Source of the DNA: Hesseltinella vesiculosa
Taxonomy: Eukaryota > Mucoromycota > Mucoromycetes > Mucorales > Cunninghamellaceae
Reading direction: 5' to 3'
Length of the DNA stretch: 64,000 nucleotides
Assembly (NCBI GenBank): GCA_002104935.1
Contig: MCGT01000004.1
Span: forward strand, 558,001-622,000
Each line of letters starts with the position of its first letter. The stretch's first letter is position 1. The position numbers and the translations under genes are program-made. Shown one piece after another: positions 4,988 to 60,553 of this stretch. The notes under the pieces were generated by a model. That model was not told the DNA's origin. It was given only the letters and a program-made list of their open reading frames with translations, and searched no databases.

Positions 4988-7548
4988 CTAATGGGGATAG
5001 TTATCCTTGACAGCAAGACGGAGTCGATCCAAATACTGAGCCATTTGATTACAATCCTTGGTGAGAATAAAAGAGATGAGCATTTTTTTTTTTTTTTTTT
5101 CACTGTTCTTGTCTTACCTGCGCCAAACGTTCATTTTTCTTGACGAAGATTTCACGTTCTTGGAGTTTGGATTTTGCGTCATCGGCCTTTTTACGGATTT
5201 CCATGGTTCGGTTGAGGGCAACGCTACAGTCACGTCGTACTTTACGTAAGATGCGCCGAGCATTCATCAGCTCATTGTGCTGATTCACTTGAGCTTCCAG
5301 TCGTTTGACGATCACCTTGCTGAATTCGTCCACAACCGTGCGACTGGTTGGGTCTCTGGCATTGTCACGGCTAGTGTAAATTGGAAAGCGTGTCAGAATG
5401 TATATATATATATTCTATTATTTCTTACCTGAATTCACGGATGGCTTTGTTGATCCCGGTGGCCACAGCCCCAACTTCATCCAGAGAGGCGCGGTCCGGC
5501 TGAGTGGAGCCGATGAGCCATTTGGATCGGAGGTGGTCCATGATGACGGAGTAATCAACATCGGAAGGATCGAAAGGATTAGAGGGCGAGGAGGGAAGCA
5601 TTGATACCAGATCAAAACCGAGGGCCCTGCAGACCTCAGCCTCCGCTTGCGAGATGGCTTTTTGTTCTTCCTCAGTCCAAGTCGCCGAGTCAAGCTGCTC
5701 CCATTGGCCATGATCGTCCGACGATGAGTTGACGCCTGTGTCATCCGGAGACGTAGGGCTAGCAAAGGACGCGACCGAGCCATCGTCCATATCATCGTCC
5801 ATCGGCATCATGACATCGTCCTCGTCCATGTTCATATCCACATTGTCCATGCTGGATGTGTGTTGTGCGGAAGGCGACAGCATAGGTTCGCCGGGTGACT
5901 GTGGAGGGATCGTTTGGGGTGAAGCTGTGGTCATCGCGCGTTCCTGACGCTGAGCATCTTCTTTTTCCTGTTCGTCCACGAGGTGCATTAGGTCGTCCAT
6001 GTAGTCATAATTGTCGTCTGTGGATTGCTGAAGGGCGGGGACCGCGGCCTCCGAGGCAGGGCCTGCCTGCTGTAGCATTTGTTGCGGGGGCGAGGGTGGT
6101 TGATCAGAAGGTGTTCGAGGCTGGGCTACCGTGGCAGGAGGTAACATCGTTTCATTATCAGCGTGGCTGTCGGCCATGTCAATGAAGGGGGAATGGCTGT
6201 GGACTGCAGAAGACGGTGATGGGATGGCGGTCGGCGTTGGCGATTTGGTAAGTGTGTGCAAGTCAGCTGAAGTGATGGGAGGGGAGCCCACAGGAGGGAA
6301 AAGATCCACAGGCGCAGACTCAACAATAGGCAACTCGTCTGCCATGACCATGGGCGACTGTGACTTGGCTGTAGTGACAGGTGATGGGGCCATGGGTTCA
6401 GCGACGGGCGATGGCGCCTTGGGTTCAGCAGCAGGGGGCAATGCCTTGGGTTCAGAGACAGGCGAAGGCGATTTGGAGGGCGCGGGAGACTTGGGGGGTA
6501 AAGGCGGTTGGGTGGTCGTAGGCGATTTGGCGGCGAAGACGTCTGGCAAGGGTGCAGGGCTGAAGGCATCCGTCCCCGGCGATGGTGACTTAATCGAAGC
6601 AAGAGGAGAGGGCGACTTCGCAGCAACGGGAGAGACTGGCTCACAAGAGATGGTGGGCTGGTGTTGCGTAGGCGATAGAGGCGCTTCAGAGGGTTCGGTG
6701 GAGATCGGCTGGGGTTGAGCGGTGGGTGGAGGAGATGGGAAGGTCAACAGTCGGTAAGACAGCGTAGGAGAGCTGTGGAGGAGCCGGGTAGAGAGAAGAG
6801 TAGATGGCACAGGCGAAGGTGTGACTTGGGTATCGTGAGGGTAAAACAGGGGAGAGCAGGAGGGCGACACAGACGAAGCTGGCAGAGGGAACGCCATTGC
6901 CAGGCCTTGCTGTGACGTGTCGTGGGCCAGGCTGCTGCCACCAGGGTCCTTGGCATCGTCTGGTGGCATCGGCACTGGATCTTGATGTGCAGGCTCTGCT
7001 ACAAGTTCTGTTTCGGCCTTCAAAACAACATCTTGAAAAGACGGATCAAAGTAGGCATCGATGGCAGAGTTGTCGATTGGTTGGTGGATGGGGACAGACG
7101 GGAAGGATGCGGCTGGTAATGGGACGGGCGTTGGTTTGGACATTGGCTCTTTGGTAGGCGTGGTGTTGTCTTGGCTTGCACTTGTCAATCCTGGCTGCGA
7201 CGATGACGATGTTTCTGGCTGCGTATCGGGACTGCTTACACTGGCTGGCCATTGCGGTGAAACGTTTGTGAGTGGCCGTTGCCGCTTATGCTGGCTAGAT
7301 TCTGCGCATTCATAATAAACGGAGAGGTTAGATGACTTTGCAAATAGATCCAACTATGTCACAGGCTTACCATTCTCAGGAAGAGGTTTGAATGAGACGA
7401 CAGTGGAATCAAGGATTTCCAAGATCTTTCTGGTTAGTTGGAAATGTAAAAAGATCACGATAAGCGAATGGCTGTTTCATAGTCAAGTGAGTTACCCATG
7501 GCCACGTTTGCGAGAATCGAATCGCTTTTGATAGTACTCCGTTAGCAT
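4988..7548 (-). CDS. Ser/Pro-rich coiled-coil protein, 768 aa, unknown
   Basis: Five exons (7548-7496, 7429-7371, 7301-5429, 5370-5118, 5056-4988) join in frame. I do not recognise the family. The first 36 residues, spread over two small exons, look conserved: a basic YYQKRFDSRKRGHG segment followed by ILEILDSTVVSFKPLPE. Residues of about 40-560 are a disordered Ser/Pro/Thr/Ala tract with repeated KSPSP/AKSPS and EPKAPSPV units, many of them Ser-Pro sites a CDK or MAPK could phosphorylate. An acidic DEDDVMMPMDDDMDDG patch follows. The C-terminal 200 residues are more ordered, ending in a coiled coil (ARRILRKVRRD ... KLQEREIFVKKNERL) and LDRLRLAVKDNYPH. The layout suggests a nuclear or chromosome scaffold, but that is a guess. 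Confidence 0.7.
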
Positions 7549-39251: not shown

Positions 39252-39839
39252 TTACCAAACAGGGTAGGAAGACAGCCATTGTTGATGCAGTTCATCATGT
39301 TGTTGTTTGATATCGGGAGGAGAGAGGGAAGAGGCTGAGGTGAGGAGGGAAGACGAATGCCGAGGGGCATCATGGGGCGAGGTATGTGGGCGAGGCAGAG
39401 TGGAGGCCGAGGAAGATAGGCCCGAGTCTCTCGGGTCGTCCCAGAAGGAGGACATCACGGGATCCTTTCGAGTGGGGTCGAATGTCGTCATGGGCCGGAG
39501 ATGGCTGGGCGGAGGGAGAGGGAGGTCGTCCAAGGTAGTGGAGATGTGCCGATGTTTTTTTCTTGGCGGCTTAATTTTAGCCGAATGATGACGGCAGTAC
39601 TGAAGGAATGGATGAAGCACAGGTTTGTTGGCGGGTAGGACAGGTATAAAGGTGGGTGTGCTTTCGTCAAACATATCGTCGTGTTGGTCATGTACAGAGA
39701 AAGTTTCGATATGTTTTTCGTTGTCGTGGCTGGCTGGCGTTTTTTTCCTTGTGACCCAGATAAAGAGCAGGGCGGCAATGAGGATACAGACAAAAGACAC
39801 AAGAATGCCGATGACAATGAGACTGTTTTTTTCTTCCAT
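39252..39839 (-). CDS. single-pass membrane protein, 195 aa, unknown
   Basis: Single exon. Residues of about 6-29 (SLIVIGILVSFVCILIAALLF) form one membrane span right after the start, followed by basic RKK. The rest is a soluble tail rich in Ser, Pro, His and Asp, with PPRKKHRH and a C-terminal DELHQQWLSSYPVW. The arrangement suits a signal-anchor protein with a cytoplasmic tail. No family recognised. The start is the first ATG of the frame. Confidence 0.65.
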   Translation of the reverse strand: MEEKNSLIVIGILVSFVCILIAALLFIWVTRKKTPASHDNEKHIETFSVHDQHDDMFDESTPTFIPVLPANKPVLHPFLQYCRHHSAKIKPPRKKHRHISTTLDDLPLPPPSHLRPMTTFDPTRKDPVMSSFWDDPRDSGLSSSASTLPRPHTSPHDAPRHSSSLLTSASSLSPPDIKQQHDELHQQWLSSYPVW

Positions 39840-40750
39840 TACATGCTATCTGCGTTTTTAGATAATGATGAAAAAGAAATAGTGTGAAAAAGAAAAACGA
39901 GGAGAACGGGGGACCATTTTCTCGCTCAGCAAAAGATGTGGTCACTCGTACGGCTTTTTTTTTTCGTAACACAAATGTTGATCCAACTTGCATAATTGAA
40001 CTTTTGGCTGTTCAGGACTCAATCACTTTTCGTGGGTTGACGCTCAAATAAGGCATCATGGCGACTGTGTATTTTTAAAGAGAGATTTTCCTTGTTAGCC
40101 GCATTCAAAAGCCAAAAGGTCGGTTTTTAATATTAAAATAGGAGAGTGGGTTTGGCGAAACATCAAACCATGAAACATAAAAATGCTGAAAATAGGGAAA
40201 TTTTGGTATGGCCTGGTTACCCTCACATGACTCGGGCTGGAAAGTGAAAAAAAAAGGTTCAGCCTTCGGGAACGAAGGCTTGGAATCTCATCCATTTTTT
40301 TTTTTTTGCCCAGTGTTTTTCGTTCCCTCCCTTTTTCTCTGTTTCGGTTTCCCGTGGCGTTACTAGTAAAAATAAAAACCATTTGACATTGACAGATGGA
40401 AAGTTTCCAAATGAAGAGTTGTGTAGGACACAAAGATGCCACATGCGATTTCCGCGCCGGCTGCCAAATTTGGAAACGGAGTGCAAACTTGCCAAAAAAA
40501 ACAGCGTGTTTTGCACAAGATGACACCAGGGGTGGGGATCGACCAACATTCACAAATAAAGAAAACGACAGGTTTTATTTTAGCTTTTTGTAAGCAACAT
40601 AAAAAATCATAAGGACATCGTTGCTCGAATGCGAGGGGTATCGATGGTGAATTAAAAAGGGAGAATCCAGAATAGCTTGAAGTGACTGGACAAGTTTGAA
40701 GCCAGTAAAGTGTTTGAAGCCGCAAGGGGCTGATCCGAGGGATTGTGATC
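39840..40750. other. intergenic region
   Basis: No gene is supported in these 900 bp. Open frames here are short and low in complexity. AATAAA at 40556-40561 and an A/T-rich composition are all that stands out. Confidence 0.4.
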
Positions 40751-40892
40751 TCACTTAGGACGCTTGACAGGTTTAGGATATAGACGAATTGTTGAGGGCT
40801 TTTGAGGACTAGAGCAAAAAAAAAAAAAGTAGTTAGAGACGGGAATCCAAGCTGGACAACAATTTTTTTTTAGCTTACCGATCTGGAGGCAT
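40751..40892 (-). CDS. 23-residue Pro/Arg/Lys microprotein, intron-bearing copy
   Basis: Two exons, 40892-40879 and 40808-40751, joined by a 70-bp GT-AG intron that splits the fifth codon (CG|T, Arg). The 23 residues start MPPDRP, continue QKPSTIR and LYPKP, and end VKRPK before TGA. It is supported by a near-identical product from the intronless frame at 42050-42121, which is exactly the same length (72 nt with stop). The peptide is very basic and Pro-rich with no membrane span or signal. Function unknown; possibilities are a nucleic-acid or SH3-type ligand. Too short for routine gene calling. Confidence 0.6.
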
Positions 40893-42049
40893 AGTAATAG
40901 AATTACTTTTTTGTGTATTGGTAAAGAGAGGGAAAGAAGAACAAGAGGAAAAGCAGTTACGTTTTATTCAAAAAAAAAGTGTTTCGTTTCAATTAAGGTT
41001 TTCGCTCGCCATCACCACTTCATCCATGCTACATGCCGTGGCACAAACTTCTATCTCCGCTTGTCAATGTCAACTTTTGTTTTTGTTGGCGTTTTGGCGT
41101 TTGAAAAAAGGAGGGGTTCAAAAGTAGCATGGTTCATTTCATTTCGTTGGGTTGTTAGTAAAAAAACCTGCCAAATATTCGTCAAAAGACCGAATTTCAT
41201 TTGGCAAAAACGTGCTGTCGAATAGCGCCCAACCATTCTGACTAACAACCTCCGAGCGAAACTGAACTTCCCATCTCTGAGGACGATCCATTGCCATTTC
41301 GAACAATGAACGAACTTGAACGATTGGCGTATTTTTTGTAATCCAGCAGCGCAAACCATGCGTCTCGAAAACTTCCTTTCTGTGCCACCTTTTTTTTTTT
41401 TTTTTTTTGAAACGTGTTCTCAACCAGCTCTAGTAGAAGCGTTGATGGGCAAATAAAGCAAGACATCAAAATGAAACTTTCCAATGATGTTTTATTGAGA
41501 GAGAGGTGGTCTTGGTACCTACATTAAAGAAAACCAGAAGCGAAACAATAAAAAAAAAACCTCGGTCATCGTTCCGAGGCAGGTCACATGGACGTGTTGC
41601 TGCATCCCTGAACTCAGCTGTCACTGTCAAAAAAAAAAAAAAAACCTATATCCGCACATCAACCCACTTTATTTTTACGCCCGTTGGCAACAAATCATTA
41701 GCGTTGGCAAAAAAATAAAATAAAATAAACCAAACTTTAATAGAGAAGTGGTCTTTTACGTTGATCAACGCCTCTGGGCTGTCGAGTGAGCCGTCTTTTT
41801 TTTTGAAACTGAAAAAAAAAGCAGGTGCTCATTTTGTTTTTTTGTTTTTGTTTTTATGTTGTTCAAAAAGACAGCTAGGCTTGTTCATTTCTTGTTTTCA
41901 TTTAAAAATGGATTGACCACAATTTCAAACATAAACAAAAGATTTATTATAAAAGGAGGATGAACTTGGGTGACGATTGAAAAAAAGCAACATCTCTTCA
42001 ACTCTCAAGTTACTCTCAAGTCTCCTTCAAGAACAACCTTACAAGAACA
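40893..42049. other. region between the two microprotein genes
   Basis: About 1.2 kb, the divergent upstream region of both copies. Two GAG(A/G)..GTGGTCTT segments, at 41501-41515 and 41744-41757, resemble each other, and several AATAAA/AATAAAATAAAATAAA signals occur near 41714-41730. No gene is supported. Confidence 0.4.
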
Positions 42050-42121
42050 ATGCCTCCTGACAGACCTGAGAAGCCCGCTACTATTCGTCCTTACCCTGAA
42101 CCCGTCAAAAGACCCAAATAA
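42050..42121 (+). CDS. 23-residue Pro/Arg/Lys microprotein, intronless copy
   Basis: A single 72-nt frame from ATG 42050 to TAA 42119-42121. It starts MPPDRP, continues EKPATIR and PYPEP, and ends VKRPK. It differs from the copy at 40751-40892 at five of 23 residues (Q/E, S/A, L/P, K/E and one synonymous set), with many third-position changes, which suggests selection on the peptide. The lack of an intron in codon 5 points to intron loss or an RNA-mediated copy. The upstream sequence holds direct repeats of CTCTCAAGTTACTCTCAAGT at about 42002-42021. It lies 357 bp ahead of the METTL5 gene on the same strand. Confidence 0.6.
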   Translation: MPPDRPEKPATIRPYPEPVKRPK

Positions 42122-42478
42122 CCATCCTGGCCAACGTCCCCGGTTCAAATCACTCTGGCCCCAATTTTGCTTCTGTTTTTTTTTTCAAAAAGTAACCTCT
42201 CTGGATTGCCATTGCCTGCCATGCTTTGCTATCTTCGCTCTGATCCATACTCATCTTTTATACCCAATAATATCCCTCCTGTTTTTGAAGTAAATGTTAT
42301 GTTGTCAATGTGTTTATGTGTTTGTGGGGGAAATGTCAGCTGTCAAACCATGACAGTTCTTTCCTTTTTCTTCTTTTTCCTGCATCTGGGCCAAACAAAA
42401 AAAAAGGCTTAGTTTGAAATGTGGCGCCATTTCCCCCGTTCACGTTTCCCTTTTTTTTTTTCTTCCGTGGGTGACGCA
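42122..42478. other. intergenic, microprotein gene to METTL5
   Basis: 357 bp of T/C-rich sequence; no gene seen. A TGACGCAAT immediately precedes the METTL5 start. Confidence 0.4.
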
Positions 42479-43462
<984 letters not shown>

Positions 43463-46818: not shown

Positions 46819-48953
46819 ATGCTCACTCAGTACTTGCAATTCGCAGCCGATCGCCTCGGACAAAAGAAAACACTGGATCAGCTTCAAGCTGTGGTGACTT
46901 CCAAGCAAGGAGTCGTTGGCATCACGACGGCTGTGGCATTGATCGCCTTGGCCAATCACTTTCGATCGCCCAAGGTATGATCCGTTGCAAATAAAAACAG
47001 ACAGAATGCCCAGCCTAATCTTGAGTTCATTGCTTGTAGATTGATCGCGGATGTCCTCAAGTAGAAGGCAAGGGCTGGTTTGGCTATGCAACCGAAGAAT
47101 TCCGCGAAAACCCTGGAAAATTCTTGTCAGAGTGGCACGAAAAGCTCGGACCGGTTTATGGCGTCAAGATCTTTGGCCATGTACGGCTCCTTTTTATTAC
47201 CCCTGTCTGATATCAATGGCTTGCTCACTTTCGATGTCAATTTGTAGTACGCCACGGTTGTATCTGGACCCTATGTACGCGAAGTCTTCTTGGACGATCG
47301 ATTTAGCTTTATTGCTGCCATCACAAAGGTAATTTTTCTTATCTAGGCACCAAAATTGCACGCGGTGCACTGACATGGGTGCTTTTCTTTTTGACTTGAT
47401 AGCTTTTTGACCCCAATTTGATGACGGACAGTGGTCATTCCAGTGAGCAGACCGCCAAGAATGCTGCCGATTCTATCAAACGTTTCCTTAGCCCAAACCT
47501 CAAGCACTACACACCTCGTGTCATTGAACATGTAAGGAGCACAGCAAAAATAGCTAGCAATATTAACAGCCTATCTGTCTCACCCCCGCAGCTTAACCTT
47601 GGCATTGAAGACTGGTGTGGTGAGGTGCCAGCTGAAGGCATCGAAATCGAAAACGCATTCCCTTTTCTTCAGCACCTGGTGGCCCGCGCAAGTGCGTCGG
47701 TGTTCGTAGGCATCGAGCTTGCGAAGAACGAAGAGCTGGTTGACAGCTTCCAAAACATGGTGTCTAATATTTCATCCGGCCTAAAACCAAAGCCTTGGCT
47801 CGAATACTTCCCTTCATTGACCAAGCTTGGCATGTACATGATCGGCAAGACCAATCCTGCTGTCAAGCGTCATCGCACCCAAATGGCCAATGCCCTTCGT
47901 CCTGAAGTTGACCGTCGCCTCAAAGCCATGGCCTCCAACGATACCAACTGGGACCGTCCCGTAAGTCCCTTGGCCCCCCTTTTTTTGAGCTATTTATTAA
48001 TGACTGTTCACTTTCGCTTTTTTTTTTGTCACCAGGATGACATGCTCCAACATATCCTTGAATCATACCCTGCCCCTGAAGGTTTAGACGTCATAACTTA
48101 CTTGATCAATTGGATGACACAGCTCATCTTCGCTGCTTTGCACACAACAAGTGAAAACGGTAAGTTTCTGGCATTGACCAAATGGAATGTGTGCGCTCAT
48201 TTAATTTCTCGTCAACTTTAGGCAACGTACGTTTGACAAAAAAAAGAAAAAAATAACTCTACCTACGTCTGACAAAAAAAAAATACTCACAGGCCCTTTT
48301 TGTAGGTGGTCTTGTACCGATTGTTGCAACACCCTGAAGTGATGGAAGAGCTCTATGCAGAGCAAAATGAAGTGCTGGCAGCTGCGGGCTACGATGAGAG
48401 TGCTGGCCCTGAAGTGTTTGACCGAGAAATGCTCAACAAATTCGTCAAGCTGGACTCGGCCGTGCGTGAGGCTTGCCGCCTCAAGAACGAGTTCGTCGGA
48501 CTTCCTCACGAAAACACCACTGACAAGACTTTGACGCTGTCTAACGGAGCTGTTATCTTGCCTGGCGAGTTTGTTTACATCAATCAATTCGTGAATCACC
48601 GCGACCCTGAGCTGCAAGCCGCTATCGATGATGTACACCAATTCAAGCCCTTCCGTTTCGTTGGCACTGATCACAATGCTGCCAAGGTCAGTGAGGGATT
48701 CGTGTTCTTTGGTATGGGCAGACATGCTTGCCCTGGAAGGTAACCGGAAGCTGTAGAAAAAAAAATCCACACCCCTTCTTACCTTTCACTCCGCAGATGG
48801 TTTGCCATTCAAGAAATCAAAACAATCGTATCGCTGCTGCTGCGCAAGTACAAGGTTGAGCCGATCGATCCCATCGTGTTTTCCAACCAAGAGCGAGATG
48901 CGTTCCCTATTGGCCCCTGCCGTATCCGACTCACCCCGCGCAAGGCCCTGTAA
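46819..48953 (+). CDS. cytochrome P450, tandem paralogue 1
   Basis: Nine exons (46819-46974, 47040-47180, 47248-47328, 47403-47531, 47592-47960, 48036-48159, 48222-48226, 48306-48739, 48797-48953) give 531 residues. Haem-thiolate monooxygenase, substrate unknown. The first exon encodes an amphipathic leader and membrane anchor (GVVGITTAVALIALANHF). Helix I reads FAALHTTSE, with His where most P450s have an acid before Thr. Helix K ExxR is E390-A-C-R393. The haem loop is FFGMGRHACPGR with Cys about 477. Exon 7 is only 5 nt (GCAAC) and supplies the Gly-Asn before VVLYR. Unlike its paralogues it lacks the intron before the GIEIEN block. First of five genes on the same strand. Confidence 0.9.
48222..48226 (+). 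other. 5-nt micro-exon of P450 paralogue 1
   Basis: GCAAC sits between TTTAG and GTACG. It is required to keep frame between the SEN codons and VVLYR, and its position matches the micro-exons of the neighbouring paralogues. Confidence 0.7.
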
Positions 48954-49341
48954 TGTCATGCAAGCCACAACATGATAAAGGCGTATCTTAGCAGCCTGTA
49001 CCACTCTATCTAATAATTAAGAAAACAAATAAATCGAGGCACGTTCAGAGAGCAGTTGGATGACTTTGGCTAACGATAAGCATTTCTCGCATTATGCACC
49101 AGATGTGGTTTCACTCCTGCCCTGTTATTCTGCAAGGAAAACTGTGACTCCTCCCGAAACTACCTCATGAAATCCAACCCCCTCTCCATCAAAAAGAAAC
49201 GATATGTCGTGCGTGATACATGCACAGCAGGAACTTGCCAAATTGGTCATTTTTTTTTTTTTTGGAAGTTCGTTTAAAGAATTTTTTCTTTCTTGATTGG
49301 CATTTTTCTTCCCTTTCACATACGCTTTAGATTCCATCGCC
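48954..49341. promoter_or_regulatory. intergenic, P450-1 to P450-2
   Basis: AATAAATAAA-like signal near 49024-49035 for the upstream gene, then a T run at 49251-49264 and the leader of P450-2. The CGGCC motif seen at paralogues 1 and 4 is not found here. Confidence 0.45.
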
Positions 49342-51535
49342 ATGCTGACGAACTATCTTCAACGCTTAACTGAGAGAGTGGATCACAGAAAATCAATGGA
49401 CCAGCTGGAATCATTTGCCCGCTCGACAGAAGGAGTCATCGGCATCACCGTTGCAGTTGCTTTAGCCGCTGGTGTTATCTACCACAGAGCTAACAAAGTA
49501 AAAAACGAAGACAACTACATCAATGTTGAGAGAAACAGAAATAATGACGTATGAATATTAACTAGATTGACTATGGTGTACCTCAAGTCCCTACCAGTGG
49601 ATTTTTTGGCAGCTCATCGGAATACCGACGCGACCCTCATGCTTTTACTGCCAAGTGGGGGAAAAAACTTGGCCCCGTGTATGGCGCAAAGATCTTTGGT
49701 CAGGTAATTTTAGAGTGTGGCACTATCGCCAGGCTCCTTATAACATTGCGTTTCAAAAAAATAGCATGCTACCATCGTCTCTGGTCCTGCTGTGCGTGAA
49801 GTTTTTCAGAACGATGGTTTTTGCATCCACTCTGGTCTTGAAAGAGTAAGGATCGTCGGTCACACAGGGCGCATCTCATCTGTTTTTGTTGTTGTCAACA
49901 GACGTTCAACATGAACCTTCTTACGAACAATATTCCTGTTGACATTTTACCTTACAGCTTCATCGCTAACACCATCCGCCAATACATCAGCGCTAACTTG
50001 GATAAATACACCTTAAGGCTAGTCGAACACGTAAGGGCGTTTTGTTTACCATTGGCCAGTCGCTAATCGAATCTCTCCATTTTCATAGGTCGAGTTCGGG
50101 TTTAGTGAAATTTATGGTCAAGTCTCAGGTGCAACACAACTCAAAAAAAAAAGGAAGACGTTGCTTATTTGTTTTTTTAGACGAGGGTATCACACTTCCT
50201 GGAGTGTTTCCGTTGGTGCAGCAAGCTATCGCTCGAGCCAATGCATCGGTGTTTGTTGGTGTGGAATTGGCTAAGAATGAACAGTTGATAGACTCGTTCA
50301 AAAATATGGTCCTGCAGATGGGCGCTGAATTCAAACCCATTCCTTGGTTGGAGCCTTTCCCTACGGTTATGCACATCCGTAGCTATCTCTTTGGCAAGAC
50401 TTCGTCAGTTGTGCGCAGACATCGAGCCCAGCTGGCCGACGCTTTGCGCCCTGAAGTGTACAGACGACTCGAAGCAATGAAGTCAAACGACAGCAACTGG
50501 GAACGACCAGTAAGTTCTTGATCTAAAATGGAATCGACCGTTTCGACCGGGACTCACCATTTTGAAAGAACGACGCTCTGCAAGACGTCCTGGAAAACAG
50601 CTTACCTCCAGCCAACATTGACTTGATTAATTACTTGGTTAGCTGGGTCACGATTTTGGTGTTCTCTTCCATGTTCACCACAGCTGAGACAGGTATGGGA
50701 GACTATTGAAAATAGAAAAACGGGGATGATTCATCTTTTTTTCTGAGCATAGCGGCGGTATGCTTAATCATCGGTTCTTTGGTTCATCATTACTAGAACA
50801 TTTTTTATTGTTAGGTCGCAATTTATCGTTTGGTGCAATTTCCCGAAATGGCCGAGGAATTATACCAGGAGCAAGTTGAGGTGTTGGAGGCTGCTGGATT
50901 TGATGCCTCGGCTGGGCCAGAAGTCTTCACTGAAGACATGGTGAAGAAACTCGTCAAGCTGGAATCTGTGATCCGAGAAACTGGGCGCGCGGGTCCTCGC
51001 TGCGTTCGATTACCCCACACCAACATCACCAATGAGACCATTGTATTATCCTGCGGTGCATGCATCCCTCCAGGTGAAAACTGCTTTATCAATGTTTATG
51101 CCAACCACAACGACCCTGACCTGTAAGACGATAACATGCGGTAAAAAAAAAAACCTCGGGGCTCAAGTATTTGCTTTCATTTTTTAGACAGCGCTCTATT
51201 GACGACCTGAGCGAATTCAAGCCATTCCGGTTCGTGGGACTGGAAACAAACAGTGCCGTCATGGCCAGCGACTCATTCTTGGTGTTTGGCCTTGGCAAGC
51301 ATTCTTGCCCAGGCAGGTAAGATGCCGACAGAAGGTACAAGAGAAACCATTGCTGAGACTTGTTATTTTTTTTTCCAGATGGTATGCTGTGCACCAAATG
51401 AAGATAATGCTCTCCATCCTATTACACAAGTTCAAGCTTTCGTCCCCAGACAAGATCACCTTTGTGAACAAAGAGCGAATGCCCTTGCCCCTTAGCCCTT
51501 GTCGCATCCAATTGACCCCCAGGAAAGGCGATTGA
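49342..51535 (+). CDS. cytochrome P450, tandem paralogue 2
   Basis: Eleven exons (49342-49497, 49566-49703, 49765-49845, 49902-50030, 50089-50128, 50181-50509, 50569-50692, 50753-50757, 50815-51122, 51188-51316, 51379-51535) give 531 residues. Anchor segment GITVAVALAAGVIYH in exon 1. Helix I reads FSSMFTTAE, the most unusual of the set (Phe at the acid position). Helix K is E-T-G-R in VIRETGR. The haem loop is VFGLGKHSCPGR (Cys about 477). Micro-exon CGGCG encodes most of Ala-Ala. Exon 5 (VEFGFSEIYGQVS) diverges from the L..GLRE pattern of its neighbours, and the NNIPVDILPYSF segment is also drifting, so its function may differ. Confidence 0.88.
50753..50757 (+). other. 5-nt micro-exon of P450 paralogue 2
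   Basis: CGGCG between GCATAG and GTATGC. Joins AET to VAIYR in frame; same location as in paralogues 1 and 3. Confidence 0.65.
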
Positions 51536-51800
51536 CCCTGCCACTCCTTCACTTTTGAACCAGGCACTCCATAACCCCATAATAAGTAAAGTGGATCTCT
51601 CCAACTTGAACTCTCCATCATGTTGCACCCGTCCTTCGGGTTTGTCGTTTTCTGGTTCGATCGTGTGACCCTGAAAGACCATTGCAAACGTTTCATTGGC
51701 CGCCCCCAAATCTGGGCATTCGGCCGCCAACTTTCTTTCCGCCATCATTTTTATTTTGGACCTTTCTTTTTTTTGTACTCTTTTTCAACATCATAACGCC

Positions 51801-54041
51801 ATGCTCAACGAATACCTACATCGCTTTGCAGAAAAGTTTGATCCTCGGAAAACAATGGACCAGATACAAGCATGCGCCCAATCAAAGGAAGGTGCCATCG
51901 GCATCACAGCTGCATTGGCATTGATTGCTGGCGCCGCCATTTACAGAGCAAAGAAGGTAAGAGACGATGGCAAGGTGACGAATGGAAGAGCAAAGAAATC
52001 ATGCTTGTCTTATTGTTTTAGATCGATTATGGCGTGCCTCAGGTACCAGCAAGTGGATTATTTGGCAGCTCGACCGACGAATACCGGCGAGATCCTCGCG
52101 CATTTATTACAAAGTGGGAAAAAAAACTTGGCGCAGTGTACGGTGCCCAGCTGTTTGGTCAGGTAATTGCTGGTGACTTGCTTTTAATCCTATGACTGAT
52201 TCATGTTTTATTTTGTGCTGAATTCAGCATGCCACTGTAGTGTCTGGACCAGCTGTGCGAGAAGTATTCTTGAATGAAGGCTTTAGTTTTACCACGGGTA
52301 TCATGCGGGTAATTTCACGACAAACCATGTTATACTTTTTCTCACCGTTCTTTTTTAACCAGGCTTTCAATGTGACATTGTTGACGAACAATCTACCTGA
52401 GACAGTCCTAGGCACAGACGAAATCGCAGATGCCATCAAAAAATACCTTAGTCCCAACTTGAAGTCATACACGCCAAGAGTGATCGATCATGTAAGAAAA
52501 ACTCACTGGGAGCGTCGGAGACTGATTCACTCACTGCGCCTCCTGCCTTCAATTTGCTCATAGCTTGAACAAGGTCTCCGTGAAACCTGTGGCCAAGTGA
52601 CAGGTAATTTGCTAAAAAAAAAGTCACGAGGCTGCGACTAACCATTGTTTTAGACGAAGGGATCACGCTACCGCACTTCTTCCCACTCGTTCAAGATGCC
52701 GTTGCAAGAGCCAGTGCGTCAGTGTTCGTTGGGCTGGAGCTAGCAAAGAATGAAGCACTGATCGACTCATTCAAGAACATGGTGATACAGATCGGCTCCG
52801 AGGTCAAGCCCATTCCCTGGCTGGAGCCTTTCCCTACTCTCATGCGTCTCCGCTTCTACATCATTGGTAAGATGTCACCTGTGGTACAGCGTCATCGTGA
52901 TCAGTTGGCCGACGCCTTGCGGCCCGAAGTCGACCGTCGTCTGAAAGCACTGGAAAGTGGTGATACCAACTGGGAACGTCCTGTACGTGTGCTTTCGAGG
53001 GGGAAAAAACAAATGGTATTCATCCCCATCTCCCTTTTAGGATGATGTGCTGCAAGATCTACTTGAAAATGTGACACCGCCTGCAGGGATCGACATGATT
53101 GACTATTTGGTTAGCTGGCTGACGGTCTTGGTGTTTGCAAGCATCCATACCACGTCGGAAAATGGTGAGATGTTATATTGGATTGAGGCTCAAGGCTTGA
53201 CTTTTTTTTTTTTTTTTTTCGTCCCTAGGCACGGTACGATTGATTTGGCGCCTTTGCCTATGACATGCATGGAGTGAGATAAAATGCTCATCGTTTTCTT
53301 TGTTTTTCCTTTTAGGTGGTGCTGTATCGTTTGCTGCAACATCCTGAGCTGTTGGACGAGCTGTACCAGGAGCAAAACCAAGTACTGGAAGAGGCTGGCT
53401 ATGACGCATCGGTTGGCCCCGAGGTGTTTACACGCGAACTGCTGAACAAATTTACCAAATTGGACTCGGTGATTCGTGAAACAGCCCGTGTTCGGGCAAA
53501 CTATATCACCTTGCCTCACACGAACATCACCAACCATCCCATTGTGCTATCGTGCGGCGCGCGTATCTTGCCTGGCGAAAACTGCTTTATCAACGTCTAC
53601 TCCAACCACAACGACCCATCTTTGTAAGTCAGAGATCAGGAAAAAAAGCAAAGACGCAGCTCACGCTTAATCTAATCCATAGGCAGCTTGCTATTGACGA
53701 TCTGAACGAGTTCAAACCCCTCCGGTTTGCTGGCCAAGAAACAAATGCCACTAAGATTGGAGACTCATACTTGTTCTTTGGCATGGGGAAACATGCCTGC
53801 CCTGGAAGGTAAGTGGCATGAAATATGCAATCCGGAAGCACAGAGCTGTCATGACTGACTCAGTTTTCTGCTATTGCATAGATGGTTTGCGGTGCAAGAA
53901 ATGAAGACGATTGTGTCGCTTTTGTTGCGCAAATACAGACTGGAATCCCCAGATACCATAACATTTGTGCAGCAAGAGCGAGTCTTCTTCCCTCTCAATC
54001 CTTGCCGAGTCAAGTTGGTGCCTCGTTCACCTCAAGCTTAA
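51801..54041 (+). CDS. cytochrome P450, tandem paralogue 3
   Basis: Eleven exons (51801-51956, 52022-52162, 52228-52308, 52363-52491, 52564-52603, 52654-52982, 53041-53164, 53229-53233, 53316-53623, 53683-53808, 53882-54041) give 532 residues. Anchor GITAALALIAGAAIY. Closest to paralogue 2 in exon layout and in blocks such as DYGVPQVP.SG.FGSS and HTNITN. Helix I reads FASIHTTSE; helix K E-T-A-R; haem loop FFGMGKHACPGR (Cys about 477). Micro-exon GCACG gives Gly-Thr. Upstream at 51719-51728 is TTCGGCCGCC, one base off the motif of paralogues 1 and 4. Substrate unknown. Confidence 0.9.
53229..53233 (+). other. 5-nt micro-exon of P450 paralogue 3
   Basis: GCACG between CCCTAG and GTACGA, joining SEN to VVLYRLLQHP in frame. 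Confidence 0.7.
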
Positions 54042-54458
54042 ATATAAAGATAAATTCGATACTCCTTATGTTTAGCACTAAGAATGAAGAACTTAAATTC
54101 GTCTTGGTTTTTATATAATTTAGCTGAAGACTTGCTCCTTGATATTTACAGAAAAAATGGATGGGCCGAAAAAAGATCGTGCTGAGTGTTATTCATGTTT
54201 GTTTATTGCCCTGGCTGACCAGCGGTCATAATGACCGAAAGGAGTAGGCCCCTTGGGCCGCAAAAGAATGCCTTGCATTGATTGGTTAATGGTAAGCGGC
54301 TCCCATTTGCCGTTGACCACTCTGTGAAGGGTCTCGGAGCGGTGGCCGAAAGGCCGTGGCTGTCAAAAAAAAAAAAAAAAAAAGGTAATATAAAAAACTC
54401 AGGTCGGGTTGATCTTTTTTTTTTTATTTCTCTTCGTTTTCCCCTTGTTTGATAATCC
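54042..54458. promoter_or_regulatory. P450-4 promoter with several dyads
   Basis: Contains CGGTCAT-A-ATGACCG (54223-54237), GGCCC-CTT-GGGCC (54247-54259) and the 17-bp motif CGGTGGCCGAAAGGCCG (54340-54356), which is the reverse of the P450-1 motif. An A run at 54365-54383 follows. The richest promoter of the cluster in palindromes; candidate inducible control region. Confidence 0.5.
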
Positions 54459-56831
54459 ATGCTTTTTCAATACATTCATCACCTTGCCGAACGTTTCGAC
54501 CACAAGAAAACGCTCGATCAACTACAGACTTTTGCCAGCACACCTGAAGGTGCTGTTGGCATTACAGCCGCTGTTGCTTTGGTAGCCGGTGCTTCTTACC
54601 TCAAGAACAAGAATGTAACGAAAATCACTGTTGCCGATAAAAAAAAAGAGAGGAGGCAGCTGACCTTTTACATTATTGATGCAGAATGACCGTGGCTGCC
54701 CTAAAGTGCCTGGAAGTAGTGTCTGGGGCACTTCTACTGAAGAATACCGTGCTGACCCCAAGGCTTTTATTGTCAAGTGGCAAAATGAACTTGGCCCTGT
54801 CTATCATGCTGAACTCTTTGGCCATGTAAGTCATGTTAGCGCCCTCCATAGCTATTTCTAACCTTTCTATTTTTCATGTAGACTGCTACTGTGGTGTCCG
54901 GAAGTTACGTTCGTGAAATTTTCTTGAATGATAAATTTGATTTTATGGCTGGCCTTCATCGAGTAAGAATTCACTTTCCTCTTTTAGCTACGCTGGCCTG
55001 ACCTTTTTTTCTTTTCGTTTTTTTTTTTTTTCTAGACCTTTGATAACATGCTCCTGACCAACTGCGGCCCTTATGAAGATCTCTCTGCTGCTCACACTTC
55101 TGAGGTTGTGAAGAAATTCCTTAGCCCTCATCTCAAGCACTTCACCCCTCGTGTCATTGAGCATGTAAGCAACTCAGCCTTGAAAATTAACAATAAATGT
55201 CTCACCTCGATCTTTAACGTAGCTCCAGCAAGGCTTAAAAGCCCAAACTGGTGAAATTTCTGGTAAGGGACTAGGCCAGCTAAGCACCAATTTAGGCATC
55301 ATCTCACTTTTTTTTTTTTTTTGTTCGTGCTTGTTATCATCTAGCTGAAGGCAAACGTATGTCCCAGACACTTTGCATTGTGCTGTGAATGAAAAATGGT
55401 CTTAACTTTTTTTCCCGCTTCAATTTTTTTCCGCTCCCTAGAATTCCCTCACGTGTATGGTCTTGTTCAACATCCCGTTGCTCTTGCCAGTGCCTCCGTC
55501 TTTGTTGGCCCTGAACTGTCCAAGAACGAGCTGCTGATCGACTCCTTCAAAAACATGGTTATTGATGTCGGTAGCGAATTGCTCCCCAACCCCTGGCTCG
55601 AACCTTTCCCTCGCTTGAACCGTCTTCGTATGTGGTGGGTCGGCAAAACCTCCAGCACAGTCAAGCGCCACCGTGGCCAATTGGCCACTGCCCTGAAGCC
55701 AGAGCTGGACCGCCGTCTCAAGGCCATGGCCAGCAACGACAGCAACTGGGAACGTCCTGTAAGTAAACTCCGCCTCGCTTCCCATTTTGGCTCTCTCTCT
55801 TTCGTGCATCGGATCTCATGGATTGTTCTCTTTTCAGGATGACATTTTACAAAACCTACTGGAACACTACACCCCTCCCAAGGGCATGGATACTCTCAAC
55901 TACATGGTTAATTGGATGACCCAGCTGACCTTTGCTGCCATTCACACTACCAGCGAGGTAACCTTTTTTTGAAAGAAAAAATCAATGGCGTCTGGGGCAC
56001 ATCTCTCATTTTTTATTTTCCGTCAAACGTAGGGCAGCACAGTAAGTCTGACATCTGGGACCGCAGCAGAGCTGAGTGCAAAAAAAAGGCTAATTCTCCT
56101 TTTTTTATTTTTAGTGGGTGCTTTATCGCCTGTTGCAAACCCCTGGCCTCTGGGAAGAGCTCTACCAAGAACAAAATGAAGTGCTGGAAGCTTCGGGCAT
56201 TGATTCCTCGGCCGGTGCTGAAGTTTTTACCCGCGAAATCCTCAACAAATTCGTAAAGATGGACAGTGTGATCCGTGAAACTATGCGCGCACGTACCGCC
56301 TATATCACCCTTCCTCACATCAACAAATCTAACGAGGTTGTCACATTGTCTAATGGTGCCAAGGTAAGTTGAAGGATGATCGAGGGCCGCAAGATACTCA
56401 CTTTTTTTTTTCTTGGTTGTAGATCTACCCTGGTGAAAGCGCCTATATCAACGTTTGGTCCAATCACAATGACCCTTCCCTGCAAAATTCCATGAAAGAT
56501 CTGCAACAATTCAAACCTCTCAGATTCCTGGATGCCGAAAAGAACTCTACAAAGATCGGCGAAGACTTCTTGTTCTTTGGCATGGGCAAGCATGCCTGTC
56601 CTGGCCGGTATGTGTTGCATAACCCCTCTTTCTTACCTGAAAGCATCACTGATGTTTTCTCCTGTTCGTTTCTTTAGCTGGTTTGCCGTGCAAGAAATCA
56701 AGACCATCGTTGCTCTGTTGCTTCGTGAATACAAGCTGGAGGCTGTGGGCGATTTGTTCTTCCCTGAAGTCGAAAGCATCCCCTTCCCCATGGGTGAATT
56801 CAAGATCTACCCCCGCAAACAAGTTGCTTAA
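54459..56831 (+). CDS. cytochrome P450, tandem paralogue 4
   Basis: Twelve exons (54459-54614, 54685-54825, 54882-54962, 55036-55164, 55223-55262, 55345-55356, 55442-55758, 55838-55957, 56033-56041, 56115-56363, 56423-56607, 56678-56831) give 530 residues. Two micro-exons: 12 nt (CTGAAGGCAAAC) before QFPHVYGLVQHP and 9 nt (GGCAGCACA, Gly-Ser-Thr) before WVLYR. Anchor GITAAVALVAGASYL. Helix I FAAIHTTSE; helix K E-T-M-R; haem loop FFGMGKHACPGR (Cys about 477). An intron after SNGAK, shared in place with paralogue 5, is absent in 1-3, so 4 and 5 form a subgroup. Codon use is C-ending and regular, as in a well-expressed gene. Confidence 0.9.
55345..55356 (+). other. 12-nt micro-exon of P450 paralogue 4
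   Basis: CTGAAGGCAAAC between CATCTAG and GTATGT. Supplies the A-E-G-K that other paralogues encode within the next exon as DEG(I/V). Confidence 0.6.
56033..56041 (+). other. 9-nt micro-exon of P450 paralogue 4
   Basis: GGCAGCACA between ACGTAG and GTAAGT. Encodes Gly-Ser-Thr where paralogues 1-3 have a 5-nt micro-exon. Confidence 0.65.
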
Positions 56832-57163
56832 AGAAGTTTCTTTCTGTATTTTTAATTATCCCATAGACCCCCTCATTTTCACCTTCATAACCTTATCAAT
56901 AAAATCTTCTAGGCGTTGTGCCTCGCCTCTCTCTGTTTTTGGGCAAGTGTATCATGCTCTCGCGTCAAGCCCTCAGGCGGTTTGCTCGTTTGCCTATGTT
57001 TTGGACCAATTGTGTCAGCGTCTTTACATTTAGGAAGAGGGTGTCTTCAGGCACGTTCTGTGTCAGGCTGGTTTTCACCACTGCTCTTTCAAATCAACAG
57101 TTGATTGTGGTGCAATATTTTGAGCTTTTCCATATTTAGTTTCAGTTTTTTTCTGGAATGGCA

Positions 57164-57360
57164 TGGGGATCCCTCCAGGGAAGAGGTTGGAAAATTGGCA
57201 GGAAATCGGAAATCACGATGACAGCCTCTGAAAATGTTCGCTGGGCGACCTTCACCGGTCAACTTTATTTTTTTTAGCATCATCCTATTCATGATTTGTG
57301 TACCAATGTAAACTATCACATCGATCTAGTCATTGTAAAATTGCCGTGGAACATCGACCT
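57164..57360 (+). repeat. dispersed repeat family, copy D
   Basis: Same order of blocks as the arms at 45056-45258: GGATCCCTCCAGGG, then CGCTGGGCGACCTTCA, CATCATCCTATTCATGATTT and CACATCGATCTAGTCA. Diverged. Confidence 0.6.
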
Positions 57361-57553
57361 TTTTTTTTTTTTTTTCAAGACAAAAAAAAACCGTCATGCA
57401 AAACCAAGCTGGGTCACGCCAGTATGCCATTTAACTCGACCGCACGCCATTTGAGAGGCATATGTAATCCATTCTAATAATATTGAACTCTTATTCAAAA
57501 TCTGGAGTCGGCCAGATGTGGTTGCATTTTGACGATCTCTTGGTAGCCTGGGG

Positions 57554-57580
57554 AAAATATCCCCTGGGAAAAATGGACCT

Positions 57581-57614
<34 letters not shown>

Positions 57615-57650
57615 GCTTGGGAATGGGAGATGTCAAAACGAAGCATGGAG
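57554..57650 (+). repeat. dispersed repeat family, partial copy E
   Basis: Left end only: ATCCCCTGGGAAAAATGGAC, a long T run, TTGGCTTGGGAATGGGAG, then TGTCAAAACGAAGC. The core after CAAAACGAA is missing. Confidence 0.5.
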
Positions 57651-58332
57651 TTTTCTGACTGCGGCATGCACCGATCTACTTTAAGTTACATCTGGAAGTG
57701 CATATCCAATGTAGTGGCGCAGAACAAGAGGGGTTAAAAAAATTGCATCCACCAAGGGGTTGGCATCTTACTAGCCTAGGCTCAGAGTAACGGGCAGAAT
57801 TGAATCCCGACTTCCTTCGGCTGACCTCCACATGAGGTTGCTAAGCTGAGAGTGACCTAGCGTTGCCCCTCTTATTTACATGGTCGTGAATGTTGCCATC
57901 AGTCGGATGGGAACGACAATAAGCAACTGGGTTGGAAGCATGGTTATTGTGGATGGCAAAGAATAGAATGGGGAGGGGATGCACATCTTGGAGCTGAGCA
58001 CTGTGACGTAAAGAAATGCAGAAAAAAAAAAAGAAATTGGCAATGACATGGCTACGCTTAACATTTTTTGATATTAGCAACATGTAAACAGGATGCAGTA
58101 TCAAGGATTTCCATTGGACCACCAGGCTCGGGTGTCATGTTTACCCTTTTTTAATGCATAAACAGCAATAAAAAAAAGGGCCGAATTGCCAGTTAAACAA
58201 ACACGTCCTCCTTTATATTTCACTGTCTTTTTTTTTATTTTTTCTTCTTTTTCATTTTCATAGCCACAATTCATAGGGCTTAAACATATTAACACCTAGG
58301 CCTTTCTACATCAAGTGAAGATTCTTTTGGAA

Positions 58333-60553
58333 ATGTTAACTCAATACGTCCAGTATGCAGCTGACCGATTTGACAGGCGCACATTCGATCACCTTCAAGG
58401 TGTGATTGTTTCCAGAGAAGGAGTTGTTGGTATTACCGCAGCTCTCGTTCTTGTGACTGGTGTGATACTTCTGAACCGAACCCAAGTAAAAAAAAAAGTG
58501 GGTGTTGTTATCCATGCTGATCATATGTATCTCGTAGATCGACCGTGGCTGCCCCCAAGTGCCTCCAAGCAGTATTTGGGGTGACTCATCCAAAGAGTAC
58601 CGCAAGGACGCAAAGGCCTTTATTACAAAATGGCAAGAAAAACTCGGCCCTGTCTATGGTGCTCATTTGTTTGGCCAGGTAAGTTAAAAAATGCTTGCCA
58701 TATTCAGATCTAACGACATTTTTTCTTATTTTTTATTAATAGTATGTCACAGTGGTATCTGGCTCTTGTGTCCGTGAGGTGTTTTTTGACTCCCGCTTCA
58801 GCTTTGTTGATGGATTCACGCGAGTAAGCAGATAAGAATAAAAAAAAAAAGCCATCTGACCCTCTTCAGTTTTTTGACCCACGGTTGCTGACAGACAGTG
58901 GCCGGAAAGGAGACCTGGAGCTTGATGAAGTGGCCAGTGCCATCAAAAAGTACCTGAGCCCCAATCTCCAGCGATATACTGGGCGTGTGATCGAGCATGT
59001 AAGTTGGCAGGAATGAGGCTTGAATAGTCTTGGCAAACACGTTTCAAACTCTCCTTTTTTTTATTAGCTGAAACTTGGTCTGCGTGAAAAACTTGGAGTT
59101 GTTCCAGGTGAAGAATGACCCTGGTTGCTTGGGCACCAACGTGACCAAAATAATAACTGACAAATTTTTATTTCTGGATTTGTAGATGAAGGAGTGGAGT
59201 TGGACCATGTGTACCCGCTTGTGCAGCATGCCGTTGCAAGGGCGAGTGCATGTGTGTTTGTAGGACCAGACCTTGCCAAAGATGATGGGCTGATTGACTC
59301 ATTCAAGAACATGGTCATTGAAGTCGCTTCTGAGTTGATACCAAAAGCCTACTTGGAACCTTACCCCTTGATCATGAAGTTGCGTATGTGGTGGATCGGC
59401 AAGTCCTCGCGTAACGTCCGTCGCTTTCGCACCCAGTTGTCCAACGCTCTGAAACCTGAAATTGACAAACGCCTTCAAGCCATGGCCGCCAGTGATTCCA
59501 ATTGGGATCGACCCGTAAGTGAAAAAAAAAAAAACCAGCTCCCCCTGTTCTCTTACCGGTATATCCTGGTGTCTGACGTCCCCTTGTGCAGGATGACATG
59601 CTTCAATGTATACTGGAAGAATATAAGCCCCCTGCTGACGTAGATATAGTCACTTACATGGTCAACTGGCTAACTATACTGATCTTTGCTGCTATCCAGA
59701 CAAGCAGTGAACATGCATCAGTAAGCTCAAAATTTTTAATCCCAGCGTCAAAGCTCCTGTCTCATCGGCTGACGTTTCTATCACAGGTTGTGCTTTACCG
59801 GATTTTGGAGCATCCTCAGCTTTGGGAAGATCTTTACCAAGAACAAAATTCTATTTTGAACGAGGCTGGTTATAATGATTCGGTGGGTGCAGAAGTTTTC
59901 ACTCGTGAGCTCCTCAACAAGTTTGTCAAGATGGTAAACTCCGCTGCGGCCTGTCCCTTTTTGTCAGCCTCCTCATACATTCTCTTCCTTTCTCAGGACT
60001 CGGTGATCAGAGAAGCAGGTCGAGCTCGAAATGTGTACCTCAATCTACCACACACCAACGTATCCAAACGGCCTTTGGTTTTGTCCGGTGGCGCAGGTAC
60101 GTGAAAAAAAGGAGAATCTGCACAAATTTAATCTCACCTGTTATTTCAAGTGGTCTTGCCTGGCGAAAACGTTTATGTGAATATGTATTGGAACCATAAT
60201 GACGCAGATATGAGCAAAGCCTTGGAAGATGCTCAGCAATTCAAGCCTTATCGGTACGTCAATGAGGACAAAAGTTCGACAAAAGTGAGCGAAGAATTCC
60301 TGGTTTTTGGCCTCGGCAAGCGCGCTTGTCCCGGCCGGTAAGTTAAATTTCCCTCCAACCGTAATTTTTTTTTATTAACTCTTTTTTAATTTCATTCAGC
60401 TGGTTCGCTATTCAAGAAATCAAGACCATTGTGGCGCTGCTTCTTCGTGAATACACCCTTCAGGCTCTAGACAAGATCGAGTTCCCTGAAGCCGTCGATA
60501 CAGTGCCGTTTCCTTCTGGTCGAGTCAAGTTGATTCCTCGTCGTAAGATCTAG
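58333..60553 (+). CDS. cytochrome P450, tandem paralogue 5
   Basis: Eleven exons (58333-58485, 58538-58678, 58743-58823, 58870-58998, 59068-59107, 59186-59514, 59592-59720, 59787-59933, 59997-60096, 60151-60337, 60400-60553) give 529 residues. Anchor GITAALVLVTGVILL. Helix I reads FAAIQTSSE (Gln at the acid position). Helix K E-A-G-R; haem loop VFGLGKRACPGR (Cys about 476). No micro-exon: the HAS codons are fused to the previous exon, so this gene has lost the intron upstream of it. It also has a private intron after NKFVKM. The GTG 18 bases upstream is not a normal start; ATG 58333 aligns with the other four starts. Confidence 0.9.

Follow-up and report, generated by a model that had tools for sequence, protein, structure and literature searches.

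Two open reading frames of 23 codons each, on opposite strands of a 64,000-nucleotide stretch of the Hesseltinella vesiculosa genome (the window), encode closely similar proline-rich, basic peptides. Comparison of the copies gives good support to the view that both frames are coding and stem from an old duplication, with the peptide held by purifying selection. A sequence-only reading of the window had proposed such a pair, ~1.2 kb apart, with an intron in the minus copy and none in the plus copy. The pair was recovered with coordinates exact to the base, and the plus copy indeed forms one uninterrupted frame. The parts are as follows:

42050 to 42121, plus strand: plus copy, intronless coding sequence of 23 codons and a TAA stop (translation and six-frame search of the genome).
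40879 to 40892, minus strand: exon 1 of the minus copy, encoding MPPD and the first two bases of codon 5.
40809 to 40878, minus strand: candidate intron of 70 nt with a GTAAGC 5' end, a CTAAC branch-point-like site, a T tract and a CTCTAG 3' end (sequence signals).
40751 to 40808, minus strand: exon 2 of the minus copy, with a TGA stop (translation and six-frame search of the genome).

The plus copy translates as MPPDRPEKPATIRPYPEPVKRPK. When 40892-40879 is joined to 40808-40751, the minus copy likewise yields 23 residues, MPPDRPQKPSTIRLYPKPVKRPK. The peptides are identical at 19 of 23 positions, differing only at residues 7, 10, 14 and 17, and the conserved residues form the common core MPPDRPxKPxTIRxYPxPVKRPK. 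The copies diverge, with a gap of 1157 nt between their outward-facing ATGs, each of which has an A at position -3.

The sequence-only reading had also noted that the base differences favour third codon positions with the peptide kept, and had taken this as a sign of selection. Quantitative comparison upheld this claim. Of the 72 bases in each coding sequence, 20 differ between the copies, distributed as 5, 2 and 13 over codon positions 1, 2 and 3 (19 differences, or 5, 1 and 13, when the stop codon is left out). When 19 changes were placed at random in codons 2-23, none of 200,000 placements resulted in four or fewer residue changes. NG86 analysis of the two copies gave a dN of 0.125 and a dS that was not finite, lying beyond the range of the method. 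Arginines 5 and 21 are retained across AGA and CGT, a two-base difference, and the start, length and stop position are retained although the stop codons differ (TAA and TGA).

The similarity is confined to the coding sequences. Compared as DNA by BLASTN, these aligned with 76% identity over 59 bases (E = 1.6e-10). The intron and the flanks, taken as ~560-600 nt either side, gave nothing below E 0.30 once low-complexity sequence was masked; without masking, the matches were chiefly A/T runs, with one match of 30 nt surrounding an A run (80% identity, E = 0.002). A BLAST search of the genome with 41900-42480 returned the self-match alone. Since the coding sequences are alike and the flanks are not, the retained unit is the peptide, from ATG to stop. 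Codon usage was more gene-like than random synonymous choices in both copies (P = 0.043 and 0.014), the reference being eleven stretches of genes in the window that were chosen by hand. Note that the raw coding score of the plus copy ranked 14th among the window's 461 ATG frames with 18-30 codons, a length at which coding scores cannot identify frames.

To place the pair in its genomic context, the peptides were compared with the whole genome (27.05 Mb, 85 contigs) in six frames. The plus peptide matched itself (E = 1.6e-8) and the second exon of the minus copy alone (E = 0.00138), and the minus peptide matched the same two places at E = 2.9e-6 and 4.5e-6, the latter being the plus copy. Neither search returned any further place; this copy number of two is a lower bound, as very short, low-complexity or intron-split genes may escape a six-frame search, and the yeast eL41 peptide, meant as a positive control, found no match in the genome. 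The reversed peptide, used as a control query of the genome, gave no match at E ≤ 10. A start-codon pattern occurred at nine places in the genome, with the peptide continuing in just these two. Within the window, the spliced minus peptide was searched against 2174 stop-to-stop fragments of at least 18 residues. It matched the plus frame at E = 1.7e-16, and the best match outside the pair had an E-value of 0.43. A CNOT1 query taken from the window matched 154 proteins; among the 120 listed, identity reached 64% at most, and the rows with names came from the fungi Choanephora, Cetraspora and Diversispora, from a plant and from algae, which fits a fungus of the Mucoromycota or a related group.

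The 70-bp GT-AG intron proposed for codon 5 of the minus copy is present as sequence at 40878-40809, where its signals back it as a candidate. It would split codon 5 after the second base, and its branch-point-like sequence is TCTCTAAC. A strict pattern, GTAAG..CTAAC..YAG, which was picked after this intron had been inspected, occurs four times on the two strands of the 64 kb, the minus-copy intron being one of the four. The match at 7370 on the minus strand overlaps the start of a 642-codon frame on the same strand, and those at 54826 and 58679 on the plus strand lie ~400-500 nt upstream of same-strand frames; all three are candidate introns as well. A looser pattern matched 53 times on the plus and 17 times on the minus strand of the window, so frequently that intron-like strings are not rare there.

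The earlier suggestion that the peptides belong to no described family agrees with the empty results of searches in Pfam, the PDB, a large protein set and the literature, which fall short of proving that such a family is absent. Neither peptide matched a PDB sequence at E 10, and no Pfam family was matched at the same cut-off. A set of 5.8 billion proteins contained no candidate sharing three words with the queries, which had been extended to 40 residues by adjoining frame sequence. Searches of viral contigs with one pattern and of prokaryote contigs with two revealed no relative; a single match in a Bacteroidota record was dismissed as chance, since it has an in-frame stop inside. Among the papers searched, none was found with MPPDRP, a Mucoromycota micropeptide or Mucorales microproteins, and none of the titles listed by broader searches, or by one on eL41, dealt with this peptide. 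Many gene callers drop frames of fewer than 30 codons, and 23-residue frames seldom enter protein databases. The protein-database negatives are therefore weak, the more so because the queries had to be lengthened, and the searches outside the genome, which covered proteins and viral and prokaryote contigs, are weak as negatives for fungal relatives.

The pair displays a short frame under purifying selection, here between two copies of one genome, and on this sequence evidence may be classed with smORF microproteins without an established family. Like the Drosophila tarsal-less peptides, the frames would be independent coding genes so small that annotation overlooks them; unlike these, they are fungal and have no known pathway, and the likeness is one of description. 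With somewhat better than even confidence, we regard them as the first members to be recognised of a fungal family, so far undescribed, of 23-residue, proline-rich, basic microproteins of the cytosol or nucleus, free-standing and arranged as a divergent pair with one member intron-split. Recognition came from two diverged copies lying side by side in one genome. If expressed, each would lie close to the lower size limit of eukaryotic protein genes, and intron-split microprotein genes of ~70 coding bases would exist below fungal annotation cut-offs. The common core provides a query usable in fungal genomes, transcriptomes and proteomes.

What might such peptides do? The plus and minus peptides contain 8 and 7 prolines, 6 and 7 Lys/Arg residues, and 3 and 1 Asp/Glu residues, respectively, corresponding to 30-35% proline and net charges of +3 and +6. 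No hydrophobic stretch was seen by eye in either, which makes a membrane span or a classical signal peptide unlikely. The high proline content combined with the net positive charge makes an extended, disordered linear motif the most likely form. The shared sequence includes PDRPxK, which we take to be a class II SH3-like motif, and KRPK, presumably a basic patch. However, among 20,000 joint shuffles of the two peptides, a common PxxPx[KR] arose in 7951 and a common KRPK-like patch in 5507; shared short motifs are thus often expected from composition, and these motifs identify no partner.

On balance, we favour the interpretation that the locus holds two head-to-head, independently transcribed genes, each for a soluble 23-residue microprotein with a partner-binding role; expression, splicing and mode of action are the steps that we infer. 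Each gene would be transcribed on its own and produce a soluble, disordered, proline-rich basic microprotein, nearly the whole of which would serve as a single binding motif for a cytosolic or nuclear partner. A proline-recognising domain or an RNA or ribosome surface would be a candidate partner, and the basic tail VKRPK may help binding or nuclear entry. The four variable positions are spaced 3-4-3 and fall within an 80-degree arc of a helical wheel, as do 570 of 20,000 random sets. Such apparent clustering on one face is not predicted by an extended motif and is noted here without weight.

Binding to ribonucleoprotein or the ribosome would be the main alternative to partner binding through a linear motif. 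The peptides would then be basic structural microproteins associated with RNA or the ribosome, similar to eL41 in role and not in sequence, a reading that we consider unlikely while ranking it ahead of those that follow. The net charges of +3 and +6, the tiny free-standing genes and the constraint along nearly the whole length fit this reading. Indeed, eL41 (25 residues) falls in a similar size class and is likewise basic and encoded by a free-standing eukaryotic gene. However, eL41 is an Arg/Lys helix, whereas the peptides of the pair are proline-rich and not helical, and the plus copy carries acidic residues. The plus peptide gave no BLASTP alignment with yeast eL41 at E ≤ 100, and neither peptide had a PDB match at E 10, bearing in mind that comparisons of 23 residues are weak.

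Whether the copies act as genes of their own or as parts of larger transcripts bears on their surroundings, in which the following were marked:

41947 to 41952, plus strand: TTATAA, a TATA-like element of putative function; the plus ATG follows 98 nt further on.
40962 to 40968, minus strand: AATAAAA, a TATA-like element of putative function; the minus ATG follows 70-76 nt further on.
42266 to 42271, plus strand: AATAAT, which may serve the plus copy as poly(A) signal.
40574 to 40579, minus strand: AATAAA, which may serve the minus copy as poly(A) signal.
42479 to 43182, plus strand: first part of a METTL5-like rRNA m6A methyltransferase gene, a neighbour outside the pair (PDB, Pfam).
41850 to 41929, plus strand: 80 bp lying shortly ahead of the TATA-like element of the plus copy, with five matches of 94% identity on other contigs (genome comparison).

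Upstream of the plus frame, no ATG occurs within 41975-42049. The ATG at 41960, which opens a six-codon frame between the TATA-like element and the plus frame, sits closer to TTATAA than the usual transcription start. Upstream of the minus copy, the 119 nt leading up to its start are free of ATGs, as is the interval from AATAAAA down to 40892.

A regulatory uORF, whose translation within the leader of a larger gene would control that gene by ribosome stalling, is an improbable explanation. The size of the frames fits fungal regulatory uORFs; the arg-2 attenuator peptide has 24 residues, and proline-rich nascent chains slow ribosomes. In addition, the plus copy stops 357 nt before the ATG of the METTL5-like frame at 42479, which is assigned by a PDB match to METTL5 (E = 8.9e-16) and by Pfam MTS (E = 5.7e-7). 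In contrast, eight other ATGs intervene between the plus frame and this one (the ATG at 42419 being in frame with the METTL5-like sequence), and 19 lie between the stop of the minus copy and the next frame downstream of it, at 39839, which has a membrane-like N-terminus. The METTL5-like frame and the frame at 39839 gave no BLASTP alignment at E ≤ 100, and since the two downstream frames are unrelated, a shared uORF role is unlikely. A uORF of METTL5 in particular was rejected in view of the eight intervening ATGs and the unrelated frame after the minus copy. The pair thus resembles the arg-2/CPA1 arginine attenuator peptide in length range and in being fungal, but differs from uORFs of that type in that its copies do not precede the same kind of downstream gene and are followed by many intervening ATGs.

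About equally doubtful is a proline-rich antimicrobial or competition peptide, similar to apidaecin or oncocin and acting on the ribosome or another target of bacteria. The length, the content of proline and Arg/Lys, and the YPxP and KRP elements may recall these insect peptides, by analogy in length and Pro/Arg content. However, both frames begin with MPPDRP and, read by eye, neither contains a hydrophobic secretion signal or lies in a precursor; the PDB search at E 10 returned no match for either copy.

That the two frames are alike by chance, or are left over from a larger duplicated gene and do not work as genes, is very improbable: short frames are abundant, as the 461 ATG frames mentioned above illustrate, and no relative was found beyond the host genome, but the E-values and the codon-position bias argue against it, as does conservation that starts at the ATG and stops at the stop codon. 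An RNA gene was rejected, as a search of the window at the Rfam gathering thresholds came back empty and the pattern of base differences is that of codons.

Returning to two independent microprotein genes, we propose that both would have arisen by an old local duplication, after which the intron would have been lost by one copy or gained by the other; because synonymous sites are saturated, loss and gain are not distinguishable from the sequence. The inverted, adjacent layout suggests local duplication of DNA and not the chance insertion of a retrocopy at this site. The shared 80-bp stretch at 41850-41929 probably reflects a later exchange of upstream sequence, given that synonymous sites between the microgenes are saturated. 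Its five other places are near-identical to one another in aligned stretches of 500 nt and lie inside multicopy sequence with repeated gene-like units (MISKDLFTN...). Four frames around one of these copies had no Pfam match above cut-off, with one below threshold (E = 0.051).

Elsewhere in the window, fragment 47403-48218 of a series of tandem frames gave no Pfam match. The series, at 47400-60100 on the plus strand, comprises several similar tandem frames, some with ends of the FGMGRHACPGR type, which we take to be the cytochrome P450 heme signature, and by eye it resembles a P450 cluster.
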